Positions 17,559-59,255 of a DNA stretch of 64,000 nt are shown in pieces (position 1 is the stretch's first letter; the number at the start of each line of letters is the position of its first letter). The notes under the pieces were generated by a model. The model had not been told where the DNA came from. It ran no database searches and saw only the letters and a program-made list of their open reading frames with translations. The stretch is from Lachnospiraceae bacterium (lineage in GTDB: Bacteria; Bacillota; Clostridia; Lachnospirales; Lachnospiraceae): contig JAFYGB010000066.1 in assembly GCA_017543445.1 (NCBI GenBank), forward strand, positions 1 to 64,000, in the 5' to 3' direction. A program made the translations under genes and the position numbers.

Positions 17559-18296
17559 ATGCCGAATGAATTGATTTTTATATTGACTGTGTTGATCTAC
17601 CTGGGGAGCGTGCTCGGTCTGTACCTGCTGTTCGGAAAGAACGGTCTGTATGCATTTGCGGTCTTCAGCACCCTGCTCGGGAACATTGCGGTCTGCAAGA
17701 ACATTGACCTGTTTGGTTTTTCGACGACCGCGGGCAATGTCCTCTATGCGGCGACCTTCCTTGTTACGGACATCCTGTCCGAGAAGTACGGAAAGAAGCA
17801 CGCGACGCGGGCGGTGGCCTACAGTTTTTCGATCATGCTGCTGTGGCTTTTAGGGACGCAGCTCATCCTGTGGTTCACGCCGAATGAGAACGATTACATC
17901 AACGAACATCTGAAGGTGGTGTTCGGCCTCGTGCCGCGCATCACGATCGCGAGCCTGATCGGCTACATCTGCAGCCAGAACCTGGACGTTTTCCTGTACC
18001 ACTTCATCTGGAAGAAAACGGGGAACAGTAAGAAGAAACTGTGGCTGCGCAACAACGGAAGCACACTCACCAGCCAGCTGATCGACACCGTGATCTTCAC
18101 GACATTGGCCTTCTGGGGCGAATACCCGACCGAGGTCTTCGTAAGCATCCTGGTCACCACCTATGTATTCAAGGCGGTCGTAGCGCTCGTCGATACGCCG
18201 TTCATGTACCTGGCGCGGAAGATCTCGCCGCTCAGCGAGCGAGAGGATAAGGCACCGCAAGAGAGAGTTGAAAGTAAAGGGGAGATAGCACAATGA
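17559..18296 (+). CDS. yhhQ: queuosine precursor transporter, VUT/YhhQ family
   Basis: A 245-residue membrane protein with about six helices. It carries the family hallmarks [16 protein letters not shown]-like (here [20 protein letters not shown]) and [19 protein letters not shown]/YhhQ proteins import preQ0/preQ1-type queuosine precursors, which fits its place between queC and queF. It overlaps queF by 4 bases. The C-terminal tail is charged ([16 protein letters not shown]). Confidence 0.9.
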
Positions 18297-18712
18297 GAGA
18301 AAAAGAGAATTTGACGAAACTGGGCAGCGAAGAGACGGTCTACCTGACCGACTATGATCCGACCGTGCTCGAGTCGTTCACGAACAAGCATCCGGGGATG
18401 GACTACTTTGTGAAGTTTAATTGTCCGGAGTTTACCAGCCTGTGTCCGATCACCGGCCAGCCGGACTTTGCGAATATCATCATTTCCTACGTACCGGACC
18501 AGAAACTGGTGGAGAGCAAGTCGCTCAAACTGTACATGTTCTCCTTCCGCAACCACGGCGATTTCCACGAGGACGTGGTCAATACCATCATGAAGGATCT
18601 GATCGCGCTTCTGGACCCGAAGTACATCGAAGTCTGGGGACGGTTCCTGCCCCGCGGCGGCCTGTCTATTGACCCCTATTGCAACTATGGCAAGCCCGGC
18701 ACCCGCTGGTAG
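18293..18712 (+). CDS. queF: NADPH-dependent preQ0 reductase QueF, cut by an in-frame TAG
   Basis: QueF reduces preQ0 to preQ1. The 139 residues before the stop include the core motifs: [16 protein letters not shown] with the catalytic Cys, the substrate segment [20 protein letters not shown], and [18 protein letters not shown]. The frame stops at TAG 18710-18712, yet continues without shift to TAA 18773-18775 as QAAWDRMRNHDMNPEAIDNR. That is the usual QueF C-terminus, so GAG or a similar sense codon has probably become TAG. Activity of the truncated form is uncertain. The palindromic repeat begins directly at the final TAA. Confidence 0.85.
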
Positions 18713-18773
18713 CAGGCGGCGTGGGACCGCATGCGCAACCACGACATGAACCCCGAAGCCATCGACAACCGGT

Positions 18774-19144
18774 AAAATGTGTCAGTGGGGACGGTTCTTT
18801 TTGACACATTTTAGGCTGTGAGACCACGGCCTTGTCTTTTTCTTGCTTACAATGCATTACTCGTGGGACAGTTCATTACGCTGTGAAAAACAATACCGCA
18901 CGGCTCTAAGACGGATTTGAGGGGGCCCGCTTCGACTTCGGCCGTTTTCTGATGAAAACAGCCTCAGCGAGTGCGAAAAGCGATCTCGGAAATCGCTTTT
19001 CTCCCCTCATCCGTCTTTTCGCGTGCGGTGTTTTTCATCAGCTCATTCACATGCCCGCTCGTAATTGCATTGTAAGCAAGAGCCGAGGCCGTGGTCGCCG
19101 ATTGAGAAGAATGTGTCAAATGGAACCGTCCCCGTTGACACACG
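18774..19144. repeat. palindromic repeat element A, copy 1
   Basis: A 371-bp element bounded by short palindromes: left TGTGTCAGTGGGGACGG ... TGACACA (18778-18809), right TGTGTCAAATGGAACCG ... TTGACACA (19112-19142), in inverted orientation. Inside, the left half (ACCACGGCCTTG, CTTGCTTACAATGCATTA) pairs with the right half (TAATTGCATTGTAAGCAAG, GAGGCCGTGGT). This forms one long imperfect hairpin with a nested AAAAGCGAT / ATCGCTTTT stem. It is nearly identical to the copy at 58173. It contains no credible gene. It looks like a MITE or REP-type mobile element, and the transposase is not in the window. Confidence 0.85.
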
Positions 19145-19162
19145 GTGAGGGGCTGGGAGGGG

Positions 19163-19248
19163 ATATCACAGCGAAAAGGGCCTGTCAAGGCCGAGCCGCC
19201 TGCGGCGGTGCTAACGCAGCCTTGACAGGGCCTTTTTTGCTGTGATAT
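19163..19248. repeat. hairpin repeat B, copy 1
   Basis: An 86-bp near-perfect palindrome runs from ATATCACAGC to GCTGTGATAT, with an inner stem CTGTCAAGGC / GCCTTGACAG and apex GCCGCCTGCGGCGGTG. It is followed by module C (GATGTAAGGCGGCTTGCGCC, 19264 onward), which itself is palindromic. Related copies are at 58569 and, inverted, at 59123. Confidence 0.85.
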
Positions 19249-19310
19249 GGGGTAGTCAAGTTCGATGTAAGGCGGCTTGCGCCGTTTCCATCGGCCAAGG
19301 GGGGATGAAA

Positions 19311-19528
19311 AACCTCCTATAGCAGGCCTACGTCGTATAGGAGGTTCGAGCGAGAAGGGGCCGAAGAAAAAAACCTCCTAAAGAGTGCCTACGTCGTATA
19401 GGAGGTTCGGGCGAGATGGGGCCGAAGAAAAGAACCTCCTATAGCAGGCCGACATCGTATAGGAGGTTCGAGCGAGACGTGGCCAAAGAAAAGAACCTCC
19501 TATAGCAGGTCGACGTCGTATAGGAGGT
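19311..19528. repeat. tandem hairpin array D1, 4 units of 61 bp
   Basis: CCTCC boxes begin at 19313, 19374, 19435 and 19496, an exact 61-bp period. Each unit pairs AACCTCCTATA with TATAGGAGGTT across a loop of about 14 bases that varies slightly, then has a conserved linker (GAGCGAGAAGGGGCCGAAG-like plus an A-run). Both stem and linker are conserved, so this is not a CRISPR. The second unit has a mutated left arm (CCTCCTAAAGAG). The stem arms resemble Shine-Dalgarno and anti-Shine-Dalgarno sequences. Confidence 0.9.
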
Positions 19529-19715
19529 AAAAGAGAAGTGATCCCCCCAAGCGCTAATGCAGCATAACCCATACCCGTACGGAATCCTTAATTCTTCTTT
19601 AAGGAATTTGTTAAGATTTTCAACGCTTCGGATGATATACTCTATTCATGAGGTCGTGAGCAGGTAGGAGTGCTCATGGACTTCTGGGGGATTGCATTTT
19701 ACGGAGGAGAATGAC

Positions 19716-23205: not shown

Positions 23206-23909
23206 TCCGCGCGGTGGTATTTGACATCGGGCAGACATTGACCTATTATCCGATCCCGCTGAACTGGTCGGGCATGTACCGGCAGGCGTTTGGAAGTGTG
23301 GCCGAAACCCTCGGTTTCACCATCTCCGAGGAGGAGTATGCCCACATCGGGGAGACGCTGGCGAAGTACAACGCCAGGATCCATCCGCGTGAAGTCGAGG
23401 TCCCGGCCGACGTGATCTTTTCGGAGATCCTGCAGGGGACGCGTATCGATAAAAACTTATTACAGGATGTGAAACGGGAGTTTTTCTCGTTCTTTCGGTC
23501 GGATGTTTGCGTTTATCCAGAGGCGGAGCGGACGCTGGCCGAGCTTAAGGAACGGGGACTCCCGATCGCTACTTTATCCGATGTGCCTTATGGCATGGAC
23601 AATGTGTATGCCCTGGAGGATATCAGGCCGCTCCTGAAATATGTGGATCTGCCCTATACGTCGAACGATATCGGTTTTCGTAAGCCGTCCGGGAAGGGCC
23701 TGCTGCGGATTGCGCAGGAGCTTGAGCTGCGGCCGGAGGAACTGGCATTCGTCGGGGATGAAGCGAAAGATATGGAGTGCGCGCGAAACGCAGGAGCCCT
23801 CGGGATCCTGGTGAACCGCACCGATGAGAAAAAAGAATTCGGACAGGATCTGGAGATACGGGATCTGGCTGAACTGCTTCACTGTGTCAGTGGGGACGGT
23901 TCTGTTTGA
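23202..23909 (+). CDS. HAD-superfamily hydrolase
   Basis: A 235-residue HAD protein. Motif I is VVFDIGQTLT (here the second Asp is replaced by Gln-Thr, FDIGQT). The Ser/Thr motif is in LPIATLSDVP, the Lys motif in GFRKPSGKG, and motif IV in FVGDEAKDMECARNAG. The missing second aspartate in DxDxT could impair phosphatase activity. The last eight codons (CVSGDGSV and stop) come from a TGTGTCA-type palindromic repeat, so the native C-terminus was replaced by repeat insertion. It is coupled to the ArsC-like gene by overlap. Confidence 0.85.
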   Translation: MIRAVVFDIGQTLTYYPIPLNWSGMYRQAFGSVAETLGFTISEEEYAHIGETLAKYNARIHPREVEVPADVIFSEILQGTRIDKNLLQDVKREFFSFFRSDVCVYPEAERTLAELKERGLPIATLSDVPYGMDNVYALEDIRPLLKYVDLPYTSNDIGFRKPSGKGLLRIAQELELRPEELAFVGDEAKDMECARNAGALGILVNRTDEKKEFGQDLEIRDLAELLHCVSGDGSV

Positions 23910-23914
23910 CACAT
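23883..23914. repeat. TGTGTCA short palindrome S inside HAD 3' end
   Basis: TGTGTCAGTGGGGACGG ... TTTGACACA is a solitary copy of the short palindrome that also bounds element A. It provides the end of the HAD reading frame and may form a hairpin at the mRNA 3' end. Confidence 0.9.
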
Positions 23915-53972: not shown

Positions 53973-54300
53973 TTGACATTTACAAACCATATCGTTTAAT
54001 ATAGTGGTGTATCCGGATCTCGGATACACCATTGCTATGAACGGGGAGAGTATCCTTTGGATCGCTTTGGCAGAGAGGACTGGTCAGCGGCTGAAAGCCG
54101 GTCTCAAAGCAAAAGAGGTGAAGTGCACCCGGGAGCAGACACGCGGAACTGATAGTATGCGTGTCCGGTGGCAGCGTTATATGCTTTCAAAAGGGAACGG
54201 CAGTTTGGCGCCGTTAAGAAGAGTGGGACCGCGGTAGCGTTTGATATCGTCTCTTCGTACGTTGTACGCAGAGAGAGAAGCGCGCACGCGGCTTTTTTCT
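53973..54300 (+). promoter_or_regulatory. T-box leader, tRNA-Cys specific, with promoter
   Basis: The promoter is TTGACA (53973-53978), 18 bases, TAATAT (53997-54002). The leader has an initial hairpin GGTGTATCC / GGATACACC and a stem I region with the conserved GGGGAGAGTA. The specifier loop holds TGC (54124-54126, Cys) in the context GTGAAG-TGC-ACC. The T-box bulge GAGTGGGACCGCG is at 54221-54233. The terminator CCGCGGTAGCG ... CGCGCACGCGG with T6 ends near 54297. Uncharged tRNA-Cys should favour antitermination and expression of cysE-cysS. Confidence 0.92.
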
Positions 54301-58139: not shown

Positions 58140-58173
58140 TCCCGCATCGGGATCACCGATGCGGGATGTTTTT
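58140..58173 (+). terminator. intrinsic terminator
   Basis: TCCCGCATCGG ... CCGATGCGGGA followed by TGTTTTT; the repeat element begins in its T-run. Confidence 0.85.
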
Positions 58174-58536
58174 GTGTCAGGGGGGACGGTTCTTTTTGAC
58201 ACATTTTAGGCTGTGAGACCACGGCCTTGTCTTTTTCTTGCTTACAATGCATTACTCGCGGGACAGTTCATTGCGCTGTGAAAAACAATACCGCACGGCT
58301 CTAAGACGGATTTGAGGGGGCCCGCTTCGACTTCGGCCGTTTTCCTGATGAAAACAGCCTCAGCGAGCGCGAAAAGCGATCTCGGAAATCGCTTTTCTCC
58401 CCTCATCCGTCATTTCGCGTGCGGTGTTTTTCATAAGCTCATTCACATGCCCGCTCGTAATTGCATTGCAAGCAAGAGCCAAGGTCGTGGTCGCAAGGGG
58501 GAAAATGTGTCAAAAAGAACCGTCCTTGGTGACACA
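58173..58536. repeat. palindromic repeat element A, copy 2
   Basis: A 364-bp near-identical copy of the element at 18774, in the same orientation. The left boundary is TGTGTCAGGGGGGACGG ... TGACACA and the right boundary TGTGTCAAAAAGAACCG ... GTGACACA. Differences from copy 1 are scattered single bases, and several preserve pairing in the long hairpin (for instance CTCGTGGG to CTCGCGGG at the base of a stem). Confidence 0.85.
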
Positions 58537-58568
58537 CCCTCGACACAGCGAGGGGCCGGGCGGAGGAG

Positions 58569-58651
58569 TATCACAGCAAAAAAGACCTTGTCAAGGCCGA
58601 GCCGCCTGCGGCGGTGCTTCGCAGCCTTGACCAGGCCTTTTTGCTGTGATA
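58569..58651. repeat. hairpin repeat B, copy 2
   Basis: TATCACAGCAAAAAAG ... CTTTTTGCTGTGATA with inner stem TGTCAAGGC / GCCTTGAC. Module C (CGATGTAAGGCGGCTTGCGC) follows at 58667-58704. Confidence 0.85.
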
Positions 58652-58780
58652 TGGGGTAGTCAAGATCGATGTAAGGCGGCTTGCGCCGCTTCCATCGGCC
58701 AAGGATGGATGAAATTACGATATGTGGCAGGGTAGAGGGCGTGTAGGGCGTAAAAGAGAGGCATGGCGAGGATGGAATTA

Positions 58781-59058
58781 CCTCCTATGGAGAGTTGACG
58801 TCGCATAGGAGGTAAAAGTGAGAGACGGCTGAAGAAAAAAGCATCCTATAGCGAGTCGGCGTCGTATAGGAGGTAAAAGTGAGAGATGGCTGAAGAAAAA
58901 AGCATCCTATAGCGAGTTGACGTCGTATAGGAGGTAAAAGTGAGAGACGGCTGAAGAAAAAAGCATCCTATAGCGAGTCGATGGCGTATAGGAGGTAAAA
59001 GTGAGAGACGACTGAAGAAAAAAGCATCCTATAGCGGGCCGACGATGTATAGGAGGTA
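58781..59058. repeat. tandem hairpin array D2, 5 units of 61 bp
   Basis: Units begin at 58781, 58842, 58903, 58964 and 59025, an exact 61-bp period as in the first array. Each pairs a (C)ATCCTATA or CCTCCTATG arm with TATAGGAGG or CATAGGAGG, then carries the linker TAAAAGTGAGAGACGGCTG-like plus GAAGAAAAAAG. Left arms in units 2-5 read CATCC rather than CCTCC, giving one mismatch, whereas right arms keep AGGAGG. The loops differ from unit to unit at only a few positions. Confidence 0.9.
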
Positions 59059-59070
59059 AAAAAAGTGATT

Positions 59071-59205
59071 ACCGGCCGATGTAAGCGGCGTAAGCCGACT
59101 TACATTGGTCTTGATTACCTTGTATCACAGCGAAAAGGCCTGGTCAAGGCTGCGTTAGCACCGCCGTAGGCGGCTGGGCCTTTACCAGGCCTTTTCGCTG
59201 TGATA
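59071..59205. repeat. inverted module C and hairpin repeat B, copy 3
   Basis: Module C recurs in inverted sense (GATGTAAGCGGCGTAAGCCG, 59078 onward, with complement ACTTACAT). Hairpin B then runs from TATCACAGCGAAAAGG to CCTTTTCGCTGTGATA (59123-59205) with its apex inverted relative to copies 1 and 2. Together with copy 2 it flanks array D2 symmetrically. Confidence 0.8.
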
Positions 59206-59220
59206 CTCCCCCGCCTCTCG

Positions 59221-59255
59221 ATGTGTCAAAAAGAACCGTCCCCATTGACACATTG
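59221..59255. repeat. TGTGTCA short palindrome S, right boundary of second locus
   Basis: ATGTGTCAAAAAGAACCGTC ... ATTGACACATT, the same palindrome as the ends of element A, closing the composite locus that starts at 58173. Confidence 0.9.

Follow-up and report, generated by a model that had tools for sequence, protein, structure and literature searches.

The locus at positions 58173-59252 of the window, by which we mean the whole stretch of 64,000 nucleotides analysed here, is probably composed of nested, non-autonomous mobile palindromic elements of the REP/TIRtron kind with a BOX-like build. A cellular function is not needed to explain it. The locus joins three things that are usually found apart, namely REP-type ends, long hairpin inserts and tandem hairpin arrays. 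An earlier note had spoken of a mobile or structural unit, which is borne out by an ordered frame and by presence or absence at orthologous sites. Its further remark that it could not match the unit to a described class was half right, as the T palindromes at the ends fit the REP/TIRtron kind and the variable inner repeats fit the plan of BOX elements. Two features are surprising, namely that hairpin stems turn over inside a frame that stays the same and that one module, hairpin B, ranges more widely.

The module order, established from the sequence and from repeat searches of the window, is T-A-T-B-C-(five 61-bp hairpin units)-C'-B'-T. The left end is a REP-like T palindrome on the minus strand (58173-58203) with arms TGTGTCA/TGACACA and core GGGACGGTTC. 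It is followed on the plus strand by module A (58204-58505), a long hairpin with imperfect pairing that is bounded by T in inverted orientation, by a second T (58506-58536), by hairpin B (58569-58651), which has a conserved core and an outer stem that covaries among copies, and by module C (58655-58702), a small hairpin adjoining B. The array of five 61-bp units with stem CCTATAG/TATAGG (58778-59061, plus strand) has a TRF score of 460, the highest of the four tandem repeats in the window. Modules C' (59074-59119) and B' (59123-59205) return on the minus strand, and a T on the plus strand (59222-59252) closes the locus. The architecture described previously is thus real, with two amendments: the TGTGTCA-type palindromes are three rather than two, the third lying between A and B, and the five units are preceded by a degenerate one with another stem (TTACG...CGTAA; read from the sequence at 58715-58753, plus strand), which had been missed.

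On one side the locus is flanked by a frame without a Pfam match and on the other by a convergent rho gene, and a terminator-like hairpin is seen in the sequence after both flanking genes. An encoded protein was rejected, as only short frames occur and these lie inside hairpins. There is also no room for genes, as in integron cassettes, between the 61-bp units. A CRISPR array was rejected because the spacers of one array resemble each other, with mean pairwise mismatches of 0.03-0.21 in seven of nine arrays and of 0.40 and 0.51 in the other two. Rfam models at gathering scores matched a T-box and two tRNAs in the window and nothing at this locus. The T-box leader (54028-54257) precedes a block of genes that includes the one for cysteinyl-tRNA synthetase.

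A second copy of the element is found near queF, at 18778-19536 of the window. It consists of a left T (18778-18808, minus strand) and, all on the plus strand, A (18809-19111), T (19112-19142), B (19164-19247), C (19251-19298) and an array of four 61-bp units (19312-19536), so that the order is T-A-T-B-C-(four units). Neither C' nor B' nor a closing T adjoins this array. The A modules of the two loci are 97% identical over about 290 bp. The A-B-C-array order, the four units and the missing inverted right half had all been described correctly. The queF frame itself (18293-18775) has an in-frame stop at 18710-18712, about 20 codons ahead of the point where the gene formerly ended. Five relatives have no stop at that position, and the stop may reflect either a real lesion or a fault of the assembly; the repeat element starts two bases past the old end.

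The genome is a draft of 83 contigs and 2.64 Mb (93% complete), and at least 141 BLAST pieces of the composite were found in it, with 40 of 85 candidate places scored. Applying score thresholds to 28 sources from this genome, we counted 22 A, 18 B, 18 C, 49 T and 23 array units of the CCTATAG stem type. The corresponding numbers for 33 sources from relatives, which include ten orthologous stretches (eight of them without a match), are 24 A, 23 B, 25 C, 38 T and 3 units. The fullest plan seen in profile searches of the window and 60 loci is T-A-T-B-C-array-C'-B'-T-A'-T. Neighbouring B and C share their orientation in 38 of 39 pairs, and T is directed outward from A in 61 of 64; as the loci were chosen by their match to the composite, the co-occurrence of modules is biased while their orientation is not. 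The earlier note had reasoned that its unit would be in doubt if the modules occurred independently or if their order were found nowhere else. The order A-B-C-array recurs in other loci of the genus. Independence holds in part, since A commonly stands alone between two T. These T-A-T units have terminal inverted repeats, are free of genes, exist in many copies and occupy sites that are found with and without the element, all of which characterizes MITEs.

The composite looks close to genus-bound. BLASTN at E <= 1e-6, with up to seven candidates scored per genome, matched six of 61 genomes; these are all six members of the genus, while none of the 55 others matched. The exact T pattern occurs in five of the 61 genomes, all within the genus. 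With a narrower T pattern, four of 397 family genomes were found, one of which (G117) belongs to another genus.

T is a short palindrome in high copy number, as are REPs. A T model gave 129 matches in the genome at E <= 0.01 with 150 of 1871 candidates scored, and since two places were matched on both strands, there are at least 127 T places. Three classes of arms differ by one base pair, which is T:A in 22, A:T in nine and C:G in one of 37 aligned copies from this genome and not Watson-Crick in the remaining five. T copies of the A:T and C:G classes also bound or adjoin A and B modules in this genome. Identity with CGTC-REPs was considered and dropped, because CGTC sits in the T loop and not at the foot of the stem.

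Outside the composites, T is found in several other settings. A solitary T lies in the window at 23883-23913 (minus strand). On contig C3, at about 9.3-10.4 kb (L087, 1498-2616), an abortive-infection-like Abi_2 gene is enclosed by two inverted T. Over about 19 kb of contig C15 (L181 3811 to L182 8800), T palindromes of two arm classes, often in pairs 45 bp apart, lie between successive unrelated genes; among ten genes scanned there, PARG, MutS-like, GNAT and ABC proteins and others were recognized. Five T at about 30-bp spacing, four in the same orientation and one reversed, form a cluster on contig C20 (L184, 1990-2111). Some T contain an extra small palindrome (GTTGCAGGTC...GACCTGCAAC; L032 about 1127-1181, L125 about 1151-1205), and its right half precedes several T cores in L182.

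A connection to Y1 (HUH) transposases became evident in the related genomes. One gene with a Y1_Tnp domain (PF01797) is present in each of G002, G003 and G005, that is in three of the six genomes of the genus, while there is no match in the 93% complete draft of the genome studied here. All three genes lie between inverted palindromes that have the core GGGGACGGTTC, as in T. The arms of these palindromes are of the A:T class in G002 and G003 and of the C:G class in G005, one pair away from T. No T:A-class arms, the class of the 58-kb locus, were found beside a Y1 gene in 20 stretches with such genes. Two candidates for a Y1 gene of that class were rejected: a 329-residue frame between two T on contig C3 is Abi_2, and a 302-residue frame near T in G117 is a transporter subunit. 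The three proteins of the genus exceed the Pfam cut-off for Y1_Tnp. With the NCBIfam model REP_Tyr_transpos, all six proteins scanned score 44-75 bits (44-48 for those of the genus), below the cut-off of 80. TnpAREP enzymes are described as recognizing single-stranded hairpins (PMC8266576). A Y1 enzyme may have moved the copies of this genome, the 58-kb locus included, and the locus provides a testable case of mobilization in trans. For the array and for B, any link to the Y1 enzyme would be hypothetical.

Three kinds of known elements resemble the locus in part. Like BIMEs and REPINs as they have been described, it is a composite of alternating palindromes. REPINs are short, though, while A measures about 300 bp, and we know of no counterpart to the B-C-array frame among either. 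With REP/RAYT systems and TIRtrons it shares high-copy intergenic palindromes and inverted copies in pairs, and in the genus such palindromes also accompany the Y1 genes. In TIRtrons, palindromic TIRs enclose a Y1 transposase gene, and some of these TIRs have the motif GGGGWSAS in common (Di Nocera et al. 2013, PMC3733652). The GGGGACGG of T is close to this motif and differs from it at one position. Further differences are that T carries neither a terminal CGTC tag nor, in its consensus, a GTAG tag, that the T pair frames long hairpins, and that no Y1 gene was found in the same genome. The likeness to BOX elements of Streptococcus pneumoniae is one of plan: BOX elements have end modules and a variable number, from zero to many, of an inner repeat, are predicted to form stem-loops and are considered probably parasitic (PMC3049150). 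In contrast to BOX, the inner units are 61-76 bp long here, their stems vary by copy, the two halves of a full copy repeat each other in inverted form, and palindromes related to the T ends are linked to Y1 genes. Among the open-access papers listed as matches, none was found that describes such an element from Lachnospiraceae of animal guts, nor any on such an element that contains the T core in either orientation or the B-core string.

The sites orthologous to those of the window and of contig C54 show that sister genomes lack the element or carry it in other forms, a check that the earlier note had proposed. At the rho site, modules are present in two of five relatives. G003 has T-A-T-B-T and G001 has T and an inverted A that is cut by the contig end, while no module was found in G002, G004 and G005. 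The G003 form and that of the window differ between 28-bp direct repeats, which represent the right arms of B and B', so that a simple deletion could convert one form into the other. At the queF site, the stretches retrieved from all five relatives are without modules. As the flanks have diverged, gain and loss cannot be separated at these two sites.

The composite at 112 kb of contig C54 is present in one of the five relatives (G002), with 93-96% identity. Its array has three units in G002 and seven in the genome studied here, and G002 carries an extra A' where the other genome has a short hairpin. In the remaining four relatives, module profiles applied to both strands detected nothing across the interval between the flanks. 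At 124 kb of the same contig (C54:124077), none of the five relatives was found to have an A next to the junction, with 1.3-1.4 kb of a longer interval covered in G001 and G002. The sequences of these two genomes diverge at the start of T, the left junction of the A element, and continue without the element, and G005 has a partial T-like palindrome at the junction. No target-site duplication was seen at this one junction inspected, where the left side is clear and the right side has diverged.

The array differs between copies in size and in sequence. We dissected 14 arrays, in nine of which the units measure 61-63 bp and in the other five 74-76 bp. Arrays have three to seven units; other B-C frames are empty or contain degenerate units. 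The stem CCTATAG is shared by the arrays at rho, queF, C54 and C63 and by L125, the ortholog of the C54 array, and L142 has the related stem CGCCTATA. Other arrays use TTACGAC (L132, L124), TTACGC(C/T) (L126), GGCGAACA (L144), GTACCTAA (L048), GTACCC (L043), GCAACCAA (L145) or GCTAACA (L124). In every dissected array the left and right stem arms are complementary or nearly so. Arrays are homogeneous inside a copy and different between copies. The mean pairwise mismatch within nine arrays is 0.039 for stems, 0.244 for loops and 0.188 for spacers; stems are less variable than loops in all nine and than spacers in eight, the rho array being the exception, in a comparison that is biased as units were selected by their stems, nine of the 14 arrays were used and truncated units were dropped. 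The difference of stems between copies is visible only through the other loci and is missing from the earlier note.

We propose the following for the nested mobile elements. The outer T would be ends of the REP type, on which Y1 (HUH) transposases of the RAYT/TIRYT sort act when the DNA is folded as a single strand, and T-A-T would be a MITE- or REPIN-like unit. B-C may be a second palindromic unit adjoining it, which in full copies returns in inverted form (C'-B') and encloses the hairpin array. The array would gain and lose whole units, presumably by slippage or unequal exchange, and would be homogenized within a copy, as a consequence of which the stem sequences would come to differ among copies. 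Pairing would be maintained by selection on the folded single strand, perhaps together with templated correction of quasi-palindromes. The turnover of stems inside a fixed frame might result incidentally from concerted evolution, or it might reflect selection on a folded single strand. Stems that differ from copy to copy and are still complementary represent a natural experiment on whether such repeats persist through single-strand folding or through their sequence.

B shows strong compensatory change in its alignment. Both sides of a pair have changed in 145 cells among 41 copies, compared to 37 +/- 5 in shuffled alignments and at most 44 with slid partners. Two-sided changes affect 14 of the 29 pairs, a little above the shuffles (11.8 +/- 1.1; 15 of 500 shuffles reach it). 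Loop 1 of B, when read on the minus strand, is GNA in 37 of 41 copies. Loop 2 reads GNA in 28 and GTT(A) in five of the 35 copies caught by the pattern, and four of the six missed by it read GAA by eye. The loop of C is GNNA in 35 of 41 copies. Loops of the GNA and GNNA types, to which most minus-strand B and C loops in the genus belong, form unusually stable DNA mini-hairpins of the d(GCGNAGC) type when a G-C pair closes them (PMC4686876). These are known from laboratory biophysics, and a role of such hairpins at the 58-kb locus would be an extrapolation. Outside the genus, loop 1 of B has other forms. A one-strand DNA-loop reading fits most copies of B and C in the genus. In L189-L191, however, loop 1 of B is GTA on the opposite strand, and loop 1 of most genus copies resembles the RNA loop C(UNCG)G on the plus strand, so that the type of loop does not separate DNA from RNA.

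At E <= 1e-5, a covariance model of B has matches in 55 of the 299 family genomes searched, corresponding to 54 of 298 genera, and the genome studied here and G003 are among them; the E-values are rough, at most 15 candidates were scored per genome, and low-scoring matches may reflect nothing more than a long hairpin. Of the matches beyond the genus, the eight with loci that were read (L189-L196) have much of the core sequence in common. B thus appears to have wider kin than the composite. Rfam at E <= 1 yielded a single weak match over these eight loci, away from B.

These data might be taken to define a new class of structured element, a proposal that we make tentatively and regard as doubtful. 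It would be a palindromic B-C...C'-B' frame of Lachnospiraceae with an interchangeable hairpin array inside, in which the stems turn over but their pairing, the character of the loops and the spacing persist; selection would then act on a folded single strand of DNA or RNA and not on sequence; B would be a family-wide hairpin without an Rfam entry.

We consider it unlikely that the B-C frame functions together with its array as a structured RNA, such as a multi-hairpin decoy, a regulator or an mRNA-end element, within a REP environment. Such an RNA would account for the compensatory changes that preserve the pairing of B, for its matches across the family and for array stems that vary less than loops and spacers, bearing in mind the bias of that comparison. 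It would also account for loop 1 of B on the plus strand, which in most copies of the genus resembles the stable RNA loop C(UNCG)G. Loop 2 of B and the loop of C on the same strand match no special RNA loop known to us, though, the Rfam searches gave nothing at the locus or over the related B hairpins, and copies are truncated, nested and variable in place.

The stems might also persist without any selection. Template-switch correction of quasi-palindromes is an established mutational mechanism, and together with concerted evolution it could keep arrays paired, uniform inside each copy and unlike from one copy to the next. Under this mechanism, however, no conservation would be expected of the unpaired G and A that enclose free middle bases in GNA and GNNA loops, as found in loop 1 of B and in C, and we regard this explanation as very improbable. 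It is hardly credible that the array gathers binding sites on DNA for a protein with a chromosome-structuring or partition-like role, the hairpins serving as operator-like palindromes: unit spacing is regular (61-63 or 74-76 bp), but the sites vary among sister genomes, and the palindrome sequence varies by copy, which one sequence-specific protein would not tolerate.

Some of the B-like hairpins from other Lachnospiraceae genera (L189-L196) have a further outer stem. Those at L189, L190 and L191 are located near ParB_N or ArdA genes, and the one at L192 adjoins a broken IS110 gene, one of the two pieces of which is below the Pfam cut-off. That B is a part of IS110 was considered and dropped, as such a neighbour was seen for one of the eight relatives outside the genus. 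A 201-bp relative of B had no BLASTN match among phages and plasmids. The B-core pattern was found in seven stretches of viral (IMG/VR) contigs (L197-L203), which are perhaps proviruses.
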